From an uncultured Pelagibacteraceae bacterium (GTDB lineage: Bacteria > Pseudomonadota > Alphaproteobacteria > Pelagibacterales > Pelagibacteraceae): a stretch of 64,000 nucleotides of DNA. Below the pieces are notes generated by a model. That model saw only the letters and a program-made list of their open reading frames with translations, had not been told where the DNA came from and did no database searches. A program made the translations under genes and the position numbers. This document shows, in pieces, positions 18,740-23,115 of this stretch (the stretch's first letter is position 1; each line of letters begins with the position of its first letter). The stretch is from NCBI GenBank assembly GCA_902587095.1, contig CACIJY010000001.1:124001-188000 (forward strand), written 5' to 3'.

Positions 18740-21220
18740 ATGAAAAAAAATAAAATTACAGCAGTTCTAGGTCCAACAAATACCGGAAAAACTTTTCTAG
18801 CAATCGAAACTATGCTTTCATTTGAAACTGGAATGATGGGTTTTCCATTAAGATTATTAGCAAGAGAAGTTTACGACAAAGTAATTAAAAAAGTTGATCC
18901 AAAAAAAGTCGCTTTGATAACTGGAGAGGAAAAAATAATACCAGTTAATGCTAAGTATTATTTTTGTACTGTAGAGTCCATGCCCGTTGATAAGATTTTA
19001 GATTTTGTTGGAATAGATGAAATACAAATGTGTAGTGACCACGAGAGGGGTCATATATTTACAGATAGACTATTAAATTTAAGGGGAGAAAAATTAACAA
19101 TGTTTATGGGGTCAAACTCCATAAGAAATATAATTGAAAAATTAGAGGAAGATATTGAATATATTGATAGAAAAAGACTTTCTAAGTTAACTTACTCAGG
19201 CCACAAGAAAATATCTAGAATTGAGAGAAAAAGTGCAATAATTGCTTTTTCAGCTGAGGAGGTTTATGCAATTGCTGAGCTAATAAGAAGACAAAAAGGT
19301 GGTGCAGCAATAGTAATGGGATCATTAAGTCCTAAAACACGTAACTCGCAAGTAAGTTTGTATCAATCAGGTGATGTTGATTATTTAGTAGCTACTGATG
19401 CAATTGGAATGGGTATAAACATGGATCTAAATAACGTATATTTCTCAAATCTAAAAAAATTTGATGGTAAAAAACTAAGAAGATTAAAACTTTCAGAAAT
19501 ATCTCAAATTGCTGGCAGAGCTGGTAGATATTTAAATGACGGGTCATTTGGAATAACGGGAGACTCTGGTGAAATAAGTGCGGAAGAAATAGAGTTATTG
19601 GAAAATCATAAAATAGATGAGATTCATACTATTTTTTGGAGAAACCCAAATTTAAATTTTAAAAGTGGAGATAAATTAATTAAATCTTTAGAAGAAAGAC
19701 CAAGTAAAAGTTGGTTAAGAAAAGTTTCAGAGTGTGAGGATGAAAAAGTGTTAAAATACATACTTAAAGACACAGAAAAACTTCAAATTTTTAACAACGA
19801 AAATGAATTAAAATTACTTTGGGAATGTTGTCAAATACCCGATTTTGTGAAAAAAACTTATGGACATCATTTAGAGGTGGTTGGTAAAGTTTTTAATTTT
19901 TTAAGACAATCTCCAGGAAAAATAACAAATAAATATATGAAACAGCAACTGTCTATATTAGATAAACTAGACGGCAATGTAGACTCTGTTTCAAATAGAA
20001 TTGCAAACGTTAGAACATGGTCTTATGTAGCTAACAAAAATGGTTGGGTAGAAAATCAGGATTACTGGGTTGAGAGAACTAAATTTCTTGAAGATAGACT
20101 GTCCGATCGATTACATGAGGAGCTCACGAAAAGTTTTATAGATAAACGCGCAAGTGTATTAGCTAAAGGATTAAAACAAGATATCATTTTTGAAACTAAA
20201 ATAGTCGACAATGAAAAGGTTATGATTAATAATCAATTTATAGGAAATTTAAAAGGTCTTAAACTTGAACTTGATTTTAAAATTGGAGACCTAGACTCCG
20301 ACATTAAGTCACTAAAAAAAGCATCAAGACAAAATGTAGGCCCAGAGATATTGGATAGAATTAATCAAATAATTAAAACAAAAAATATTGAACTCAAAAA
20401 AGATCTTAAAATTTATTGGAATAATTTTCCAATAGCATATTTAAGTAAAGGGAATGATTACTTAAAGCCTGAAATAAATGCTATTGTTGATGATGTTGTA
20501 GAAACTGAACAAAAAAATATTTTACAAAATTTTTTAAAGAGTTGGTTAAACGAAAAAATTAATATTGAACTAGGTAGTCTTACAAAATTAAAAAATATTA
20601 AATCATCTAACCCATCTACTAGGGCTTTATCTTATATGTTGTATGAAAATAATGGAGTTTTAAAAAGAGATAGCATAAAAAAATTGTTAAATGACTTAGA
20701 CCAAAATGAGAGGAAAATCCTGAGAGATCAAGGAGTTAAGTTTGGAAGATATCATATTTTTTTACATAAATTATTTAAGCCAAGCGTTGTTTCATTAAGA
20801 TTAATGTTATGGAAAAATTACAATGAAAAAAACTATAATTTAGAACCTCCGACATTTGGTTTAAATTTTTTAAACGATAAAAAATTTTCGGATAAAAATT
20901 TTATGCTTATGTGTGGTTTTGAAAAATTTGATGATTATTTTGTTCGTATTGATATTTTAGAAAGATTATTCCTGGAAATAATAAGCTCAGACACTGGAAA
21001 AAACACCAAAATTGAAGTCGTTCCGAAGATGTTAAATCTATTAGGTTGTAGCAAAGATAATTTCCTGAAATTAATAAAGAAAATGAACTACAATGTCTCA
21101 CTTGAAAATGACAAATATTTTTTTAAATATAATCCTGTAAAAAAAATTAATAAAAAAACTAGAGGTAAATTTCAAAATGACAATCCTTTTGCCGCTTTAA
21201 AACAGTTAAATTTAAAATGA
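18740..21220 (+). CDS. SUV3-like DExH RNA helicase
   Basis: ORF 826 aa; LGPTNTGKTFLAIE, VGIDEIQMCSD, ATDAIGMGINMDLNNVYF, SQIAGRAGR. Confidence 0.9.
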   Translation: MKKNKITAVLGPTNTGKTFLAIETMLSFETGMMGFPLRLLAREVYDKVIKKVDPKKVALITGEEKIIPVNAKYYFCTVESMPVDKILDFVGIDEIQMCSDHERGHIFTDRLLNLRGEKLTMFMGSNSIRNIIEKLEEDIEYIDRKRLSKLTYSGHKKISRIERKSAIIAFSAEEVYAIAELIRRQKGGAAIVMGSLSPKTRNSQVSLYQSGDVDYLVATDAIGMGINMDLNNVYFSNLKKFDGKKLRRLKLSEISQIAGRAGRYLNDGSFGITGDSGEISAEEIELLENHKIDEIHTIFWRNPNLNFKSGDKLIKSLEERPSKSWLRKVSECEDEKVLKYILKDTEKLQIFNNENELKLLWECCQIPDFVKKTYGHHLEVVGKVFNFLRQSPGKITNKYMKQQLSILDKLDGNVDSVSNRIANVRTWSYVANKNGWVENQDYWVERTKFLEDRLSDRLHEELTKSFIDKRASVLAKGLKQDIIFETKIVDNEKVMINNQFIGNLKGLKLELDFKIGDLDSDIKSLKKASRQNVGPEILDRINQIIKTKNIELKKDLKIYWNNFPIAYLSKGNDYLKPEINAIVDDVVETEQKNILQNFLKSWLNEKINIELGSLTKLKNIKSSNPSTRALSYMLYENNGVLKRDSIKKLLNDLDQNERKILRDQGVKFGRYHIFLHKLFKPSVVSLRLMLWKNYNEKNYNLEPPTFGLNFLNDKKFSDKNFMLMCGFEKFDDYFVRIDILERLFLEIISSDTGKNTKIEVVPKMLNLLGCSKDNFLKLIKKMNYNVSLENDKYFFKYNPVKKINKKTRGKFQNDNPFAALKQLNLK

Positions 21221-21639
21221 TATTAAAATTTTTTAATAAAGACGAAAAATTAAATAACGATAATGATCTACTAAATGTAGCTTGTTTGATGATACATGCT
21301 GCTAGAATAGATGAAAATTATACCGATAAAGAAAAAGAAATTATAAAAAAGACCCTCAAAAAACTTAATAATAATGAAGATATAGATAAAGTTTTAATAG
21401 AGGCTGAAAAAAAAGAAACCGACTCTAATCATATTCAAGATTTTACAAAAAATATAAAGGCTATGGATAAAAATAATAAAATAGAAATTATAAAAAATAT
21501 TTGGGGTATTATTTTGTCAGACGGTAATTCAGATATGTATGAAGAAAATTTAATGAGACGTTTGGCAGGTTTGCTTTATGTGGATGCTAAAACAATGGGT
21601 GATATTAAATTAGATATACAAAATAAACAAAAACGATGA
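21217..21639 (+). CDS. TerB-like family protein
   Basis: ORF 140 aa; [26 protein letters not shown] ... [12 protein letters not shown]. Confidence 0.7.
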
Positions 21640-21962
21640 CATATATAGTAAATGATAAATGTATAAAATGTAAGCTGATGGACTGTGTAGAGGTTTGCCC
21701 AGTTGACTGTTTCTATGAAGGGAAAAATATGCTTGTAATTAAACCTGATGAGTGTATAGATTGTGGCGTTTGTGAGCCAGAATGCCCTTTAGATGCTATA
21801 AAGTCAGAAACAGAGGAAGGATCAGAAAAATGGTTAGAGATCAACAAAAAATATTCAGAGATTTGGCCAAATATTTCACAAAAAAAAGAGCCACCAATAG
21901 ATAACGAAAAATATAAAAATGAAAAAAATAAATTTGAAAAGTATTTTAAAGAAAACCTTTAA
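21636..21962 (+). CDS. fdxA: 7Fe ferredoxin
   Basis: ORF 108 aa; [21 protein letters not shown] and [16 protein letters not shown] cluster motifs. Confidence 0.92.
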
Positions 21963-22797
21963 AAAGAAAAAAGATAAAGTAAAAAAATTTAAAAAAAAAG
22001 TTAAGGTTAAACCAAGTAAAATTAATACTAAGAAAGTTGGAAGGCCGAAAATTGTAAAAAAGGAAAAACAAGCTAAAATTGAAAAAAATAAAGAATTAAA
22101 AAAAAATTCAAGTAAAAATGAGAATTTAAAACTTACAAAAACCTTAGATCAAAAACCTGAGATAATAAAAATAAAAAAACAAGGGACTGAAAAGAAAGAA
22201 TATAAAGTAAAAGATTATATTGTTTACCCAAAACACGGTGTTGGCCAAATAATTTCAGTTAGTGCAAAAAAAATTGGAGGTATTGATGTTCAATGTTACG
22301 ATATAAAATTTGAGAAAGACAAAGCAATAGGATTGCTCCCTATTAATAAACAGTCGCACCTAAGACCACTTTCAACTATAAACCAGGTAAACAAATCTAT
22401 CTCAATTTTAAAAGGAAAACCTAAAATTAAAAGATCAATGTGGAGCAGGAGAGCTCAGGAATATGAGCAAAAAATTACATCAGGGAAAATTTATGATCTT
22501 GCAGAGGTTGTGAGGGATCTAAATAAAGGTGATGATATAATGATAGATCAATCCTATAGTGAAAGACAGTTATTTGAAAAAGCCTACGAAAGAATTATTT
22601 CAGAGTTTCAAATAGTTCTAAATTTGTCATTGGAAAATACTCAAAAAAAACTTGATAAAGCCTTAAAAAGAAATTTAGAAAAAAACAGCGAAGTTATAAA
22701 TCAAAAAATCGTTAAAACCGATACGCCTAAAAATACGACCGAGGATATAAACAACGAAGATAATTCAAATTTAGAAAACGAGAGTGAAGATCAATAA
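21919..22797 (+). CDS. CarD/CdnL-family transcription regulator with Lys-rich N-terminal extension
   Basis: ORF 292 aa; CarD/TRCF domain from [26 protein letters not shown]; preceded by ~95 mostly Lys-rich residues. Confidence 0.87.
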
Positions 22798-22800
22798 AAA

Positions 22801-22835
22801 AAACGCTTCTCACACAATCGTTATGAGAAGCGTTT
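22801..22835. terminator. Bidirectional Rho-independent terminator
   Basis: 12-bp perfect stem AAACGCTTCTCA / TGAGAAGCGTTT with T-tract after it on both strands; lies between CarD (+) and the 23-aa microgene (-). Confidence 0.92.
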
Positions 22836-22849
22836 TTAAAAAAGAATTA

Positions 22850-22921
22850 TTATCTTCTTCTTCTTCTTTTTTTAGCTTTTTTCTTAGCTTTTTTCTTAGC
22901 TTTTTTTCTTCTTTTAGCCAT
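22850..22921 (-). CDS. 23-aa Lys/Arg/Ala microprotein
   Basis: Manual translation MAKRRKKAKKKAKKKAKKRRRRR*; RBS-like AGGGAG upstream of ATG (CAGGGAGCTAAAGATGG); followed by the terminator at 22801-22835. Confidence 0.8.
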   Translation of the reverse strand: MAKRRKKAKKKAKKKAKKRRRRR

Positions 22922-22939
22922 CTTTAGCTCCCTGTTTGT

Positions 22940-22958
22940 ACGAATCATTTTGATTCGT
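22940..22958. repeat. Perfect inverted repeat/hairpin upstream of the microgene
   Basis: ACGAATCA-TTT-TGATTCGT, 8-bp arms. Confidence 0.75.
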
Positions 22959-23115
22959 TGTTTAGTTAATTTTTAAATTTTTTCTCATGTTATGTCAATT
23001 ATATAATTTTTTATAAATTAAGTTGTAAAATTAAAATTTAAATTTTTTAAAATTTTATTTTTAATTAATGCAAAAACATTAATGTTTATGCGCTTAATAT
23101 AACATTATTTATTAA

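Follow-up and report, generated by a model that had tools for sequence, protein, structure and literature searches.

A Lys/Arg/Ala-only microgene convergent with carD is conserved across SAR11 and may encode a miniature linker-histone-tail-like nucleoid protein

The 64,000-nucleotide stretch of Pelagibacteraceae DNA analysed here (the window) carries a 23-codon microgene that is a real, single-copy, order-wide protein-coding gene of SAR11, maintained under purifying selection at a fixed locus. Essentially every SAR11 (Pelagibacterales) genome examined keeps it at this one place. The composition of the peptide and of its longer orthologues points to a nucleic-acid-binding polycation, with DNA as its probable target. 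The locus comprises the following elements.

21919 to 22797, plus strand: carD, encoding an RNA polymerase-binding protein of the CarD/CdnL family (Pfam PF21095, 2.6e-19; PF02559, 3e-9), the convergent neighbour and conserved syntenic partner of the microgene
22799 to 22837, minus strand: intrinsic terminator with a 16-bp stem (-20.3 kcal/mol, z -6.4) and A/T runs on both sides
22850 to 22921, minus strand: microgene open reading frame, 23 aa, MAKRRKKAKKKAKKKAKKRRRRR*
22928 to 22933, minus strand: Shine-Dalgarno sequence AGGGAG
22940 to 22958, minus strand: perfect 8-bp leader hairpin ACGAATCA-AAA-TGATTCGT (as RNA, -8.1 kcal/mol, z -3.7)
22970 to 22975, minus strand: putative -10 hexamer TAAAAA(T), assigned by eye, 17 nt from the -35
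22993 to 22998, minus strand: -35 hexamer TTGACA, matching the consensus

The initial annotation had proposed a microgene of 23 aa composed of Met, Ala, Lys and Arg only, and the reading frame was confirmed. After the initiator Met the residues are exclusively Lys, Arg and Ala (codons ATG GCT AAA AGA AGA AAA AAA GCT AAG AAA AAA GCT AAG AAA AAA GCT AAA AAA AGA x5 TAA). A 32-aa version starting at an in-frame upstream ATG (22850-22948) was rejected and 22921 taken as the start, because that ATG is missing in many orthologues. AT-rich surroundings and a predominance of AAA and AGA codons might suggest a chance or low-complexity artefact of A-rich sequence. That reading is refuted: the next-longest K/R/A-only ATG ORF in the window is 4 aa, 150 copies of the window simulated with a first-order Markov model gave none longer than 7 aa and hence none of 10 aa or more, and the microgene is conserved in at least 10 genera and two families.

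Orthologues were sought through carD synteny and DNA patterns because low complexity defeats protein E-values; a direct protein search with the 23-mer returned no match in 41 relatives. By use of the upstream signals only (hairpin, RBS and ATG), a search of 84,980 species genomes matched at least 119 contigs, and all of the matches listed were assigned to Pelagibacter, Pelagibacteraceae or Pelagibacterales. Among the matches listed, two of 119 are cut by data ends; the frame is intact in all 117 complete loci, each encoding 21-41 aa of K/R/A(T/P/S/G) composition, and all 112 loci that could be tested have carD in convergent orientation. No match to the microgene was found among viral contigs. 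A carD-based survey of relatives likewise placed the ORF beside carD wherever the contig continues, the exceptions being two contig ends (L014, L092) and L104. In this last case (G133:C7, from a genome that is 62% complete) carD is fused mid-gene to an acyl-CoA ligase gene and the microgene is removed, reflecting either a deletion or an assembly join or chimera.

The pattern of substitution is that of a protein-coding gene. Values of pN/pS are 0.16 in the 23-aa group (15 sequences), 0.06 in the 25-aa group and 0.02 in the 85-aa sister-family form, these being the three best-sampled groups, and range from 0.18 to 0.73 in small or divergent groups. In the 23-aa group, differences number 326 at third codon positions versus 131 and 93 at the other two, pairwise counts that are non-independent and all point one way. 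Loss of the frame or RBS in relatives, the outcome that the initial annotation had named as fatal to the gene, was not observed, and the dN/dS and synteny comparisons it had suggested both came out in its favour. The same data weigh on the idea that the unit is a small RNA composed of a 5' hairpin, a purine-rich middle and a terminator, within which the ORF is incidental. A predicted transcript of ~165 nt with a hairpin at each end, together with a conserved and single-copy leader hairpin, would fit such an RNA; the concentration of changes in third positions, the retention of frame, RBS and ATG, and length changes that keep the frame do not. Moreover, another genus has swapped the terminator sequence yet kept the protein, and the sister family retains a long protein (80-99 aa) and not the same RNA, making the small-RNA reading very remote.

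That the microgene forms its own transcription unit, as proposed initially, is strongly supported, with promoter, 5' hairpin, RBS and terminator all found and conserved in relatives. The promoter is an element that had been overlooked: TTGAC is present in 116 of the 119 contigs among the upstream-signal matches listed. A promoter scan chose AAAAAT as the -10 instead, with an 18-nt spacer. Throughout the order the hairpin motif lies 39-42 nt after the -35 and is accordingly predicted to lie at the very 5' terminus of the transcript; the distance from the -10 to the hairpin is about 10 nt, and the predicted transcript start should fall ~3-5 nt before the hairpin. The remaining signals bear out their earlier descriptions as a good RBS, a perfect upstream hairpin and a strong bidirectional terminator. 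In genus g1 the Shine-Dalgarno sequence sits in the conserved context AGGGAGCTAAAG-ATG, and each of the 18 genomes examined contains the hairpin motif exactly once; in the window one such hairpin was found where 0.01 is expected. With A/T runs flanking both sides of its stem, the terminator can also end the plus-strand carD transcript, and in genus g8 it retains its position with a different sequence.

Stem sequences of the leader hairpin vary by genus, yet the stem is retained: g1 carries CGAAUCA/UGAUUCG, the sister family f2 GAAUCAC/GUGAUUC, g5 AUCACAUAA/UUAUGUGAU, and g7 UCACUUAAA/UUUAAGUGA, where L074 has G-C in place of an A-U pair. Pairing was partly imposed by the search expression, and the evidence for structure in this comparison thus resides only in the outer pair (A-U, G-U or G-C) and the re-registered stems. 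Because the stems differ yet persist and the loop varies in length, an RNA hairpin is favoured over a DNA operator, a role also disfavoured by the predicted location at the transcript 5' end and by occurrence once per genome. At its 5'-terminal position the hairpin probably shields the short mRNA against 5' decay. A second leader stem, present in g5, g7 and much of f2, pairs CUCC or CCUC with the Shine-Dalgarno sequence (second-stem leaders are L074-L082 in g5-g7 and L083-L098 in f2), and this stem is missing in the short forms. The arrangement (CUCC...GGAG) suggests translational control in the longer-form genera that the short forms have lost, possibly an autoregulation by the polycation itself. 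A search of Rfam at gathering scores found nothing at the locus; lax matches, the best to rli38 and to the SAR11 'rhtB' RNA at half its cut-off, were all sub-threshold and judged to be chance.

Other genera of the family carry the orthologue at this locus and on this strand, with a common CGAATC leader, and the sister family has it at this locus too; the encoded protein varies widely in length. Orthologues are 21-35 aa in g1 (rows of the CarD tree), 21-24 aa in g8 and g9, 31 aa in g6, 36-38 aa in g5, 34-58 aa in g7 (e.g. MAKKRKKAAKKKVAKKPAKRKVAKKKPAAKKRKPAAKKKAPAKKRKPAKKKTAKKRKR) and 40-99 aa in f2 (MEELKVIFAKARKKAKKKAAPKKKRKAAKRKPAKKKAAPKK...). Pelagibacteraceae forms are composed of 54% K, 22% R and 18% A, and sister-family forms of 50% K, 26% A, 10% R and 7% P, the latter arranged in KKAAPKK and KRKPAKKK repeats typical of histone H1- and AlgP-like sequences. 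Repeats of the KKAAPKK/PAKKK type mark the 31-99 aa proteins of the sister family and of the early-branching genera. The likeness to an H1/AlgP-type tail noted at the outset is thereby reinforced, the longer orthologues at the same locus resembling true H1-type KAAPKK repeat proteins, and the 23-mer therefore stands as the shortest kind of a single H1-tail-like protein that varies in length. In a CarD tree, many inner branches of which are weakly supported, long forms belong to the sister family, intermediates branch early, and short forms make up the clade that unites Pelagibacter with g8 and g9. The simplest reading is a shortening in the Pelagibacter line through streamlining; the direction of this change is inferred, because no outgroup with the microgene was found outside the order. 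None of 88 carD loci of other alphaproteobacteria has such a gene beside carD. One strong K/A-rich match in another alphaproteobacterium (L119) was rejected because it lies across the start of carD and resembles the N-terminal tail of CarD itself. A sister-family N-terminus pattern had no match in 289 genomes of the class, a sample without sister-family genomes and so without a positive control, and this search was set aside.

What might a 23-residue polycation do? About three quarters of its positions are positively charged and no residue could form a fold or a globular domain, which leaves charge as the only plausible basis for binding; nucleic acids are the natural partner, given the H1/AlgP-like repeats of the longer orthologues. 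We consider it probable, judging by charge, that the target is DNA and that the microprotein is a disordered polycation acting as a miniature linker-histone-tail-like nucleoid protein. Its Lys and Arg residues would neutralise and bridge DNA phosphates with no sequence specificity and so aid chromosome packing in a very small cell. Each complete SAR11 genome has three HU/IHF genes, and the microprotein would thus work alongside HU and IHF, adding to the classical nucleoid proteins and not replacing them; HU/IHF are encoded separately, and the microprotein has no Pfam match to their fold (PF00216). At the salt concentration of the cytoplasm, DNA binding by so short a peptide may be weak unless the peptide is abundant. 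The consensus -35, strong RBS and 5' hairpin would suit high expression, and the promoter and RBS lead one to expect the microprotein in quantity.

H1-like bacterial proteins are already known, and what is new is a free-standing 21-41 aa form fixed across a whole lineage. A published example of DNA binding by a sequence of such composition is AlgP of Pseudomonas, whose KPAA tail resembles the H1 C-terminal tail in composition and binds DNA, and which associates globally with the nucleoid when polyphosphate kinases are absent (PMC9239181). The sister-family SAR11 form resembles AlgP and the C-terminal KPAA domain of PhaF in its Lys/Ala/Pro repeats, although repeats of such low complexity allow no claim of sequence homology. 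In AlgP a tail of 154 aa is joined to an N-terminal domain (PMC9239181); the SAR11 protein lacks such a domain, and in Pelagibacter it measures 21-41 aa and contains almost no proline. Chlamydial Hc2 is also Lys-rich and varies in length (165-237 aa) with the number of its Lys-rich pentamers (PMC2848022). Like Hc2 and other bacterial H1-like proteins, the SAR11 protein varies in length at the same gene position, but it is five- to tenfold shorter and has no Pfam match. With the C-terminal tail of eukaryotic histone H1 and with protamines it has in common a disordered Lys/Arg polycation, Ala/Pro spacers and an Arg-rich end; it differs as a free-standing, bacterial 23-mer without a globular domain, and the likeness is one of convergent composition only. 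Pfam and NCBIfam profiles assigned five orthologues to 0 families, a weak test at such low complexity, and a PDB search with the 58-aa form gave no match.

Composition alone cannot tell a DNA target from rRNA or mRNA, and binding to RNA or the ribosome is the main rival. A translated microprotein could serve as a small accessory ribosomal or mRNA-binding protein that neutralises rRNA phosphates during assembly, in the manner of bTHX or bL37, strongly basic proteins of about 23-27 aa. The size and basicity of the microprotein, its MAKRRKK-type N-terminus and a constitutive-looking promoter recall these tiny proteins. They carry Gly, aromatic and His residues, however, and tiny ribosomal proteins are length-fixed and pocket-specific; the microprotein is nearly pure K/R/A without such anchors, ranges in length between 21 and 99 aa at a single locus, matches no NCBIfam or Pfam family and is encoded outside any ribosomal operon. 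SAR11 does place RNA leaders before ribosomal genes (PMC2704228), which speaks for this rival; even so, an RNA target seems to us unlikely, if the most serious competitor to DNA binding. Considerably further from the evidence is an AlgP-like polyphosphate-organising role. Among described proteins AlgP comes closest in composition, and it associates with polyphosphate granules (PMC9239181); ppk1 is present in the window's own genome (G000:C2). Across SAR11, ppk1 is patchy: no more than 19 of 61 relatives have it, as do 5 of the 18 genomes that are at least 90% complete, and the microgene does not consistently co-occur with it in the 61 relatives. Two genomes, G012 (100% complete; L101) and G009 (92%; L011), keep the microgene without ppk1. 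A general polyphosphate role is weakened because ppk1 is usually absent, and we regard it as highly improbable.

Few cells on Earth are as numerous as those of SAR11, and their genomes are highly reduced; a gene that all complete genomes examined have retained despite such reduction is likely to matter. Returning to the DNA-binding reading, it is tempting to speculate, at somewhat less than an even chance, that Pelagibacterales possess a linker-histone-like nucleoid system peculiar to the order and built on a free-standing H1-type tail that streamlining cut from ~90 to ~23 residues, that ranks among the smallest dedicated DNA-packing proteins known, that is needed by the ocean's most abundant bacteria and that was missed by gene calling and tryptic proteomics. 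If so, a 23-residue K/R/A peptide would mark a lower size limit for a chromosome-packing protein, and the natural variants of this single locus, 99 down to 21 residues long, would offer a ready-made experiment on the length of H1-like tail needed. The microgene also exemplifies a class that standard methods tend to miss, being below the usual size for gene calling and thus easily passed over by gene finders, and encoding a K/R-rich peptide that trypsin would destroy and that would tend to escape tryptic proteomics. The SAR11 transcript literature examined does not mention it, and the region is missing from Table 1 of a survey of SAR11 structured RNAs (PMC2704228), which makes no mention of carD either, its supplementary list of misannotated coding regions aside.

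Several features of carD itself deserve comment. In SAR11 CarD, the N-terminal ~90 aa form a Lys-rich tail (21919-22200, plus strand, in the window), so that a Lys-rich CarD tail and a free Lys-rich peptide are encoded side by side; with the H1-like K/A-rich tail overlapping the carD start in L119, this arrangement possibly reflects a functional link between CarD and H1-like tails. The carD matches of L013 (G048), L071-L073 and L080 are broken by several stop codons, owing to frameshifts or a divergent N-terminal tail. In the window, carD ends a plus-strand run (18740-22797) of genes for a Suv3-like helicase, a TerB-like protein, a ferredoxin (DUF3470) and CarD, the last two genes overlapping by 44 bases.
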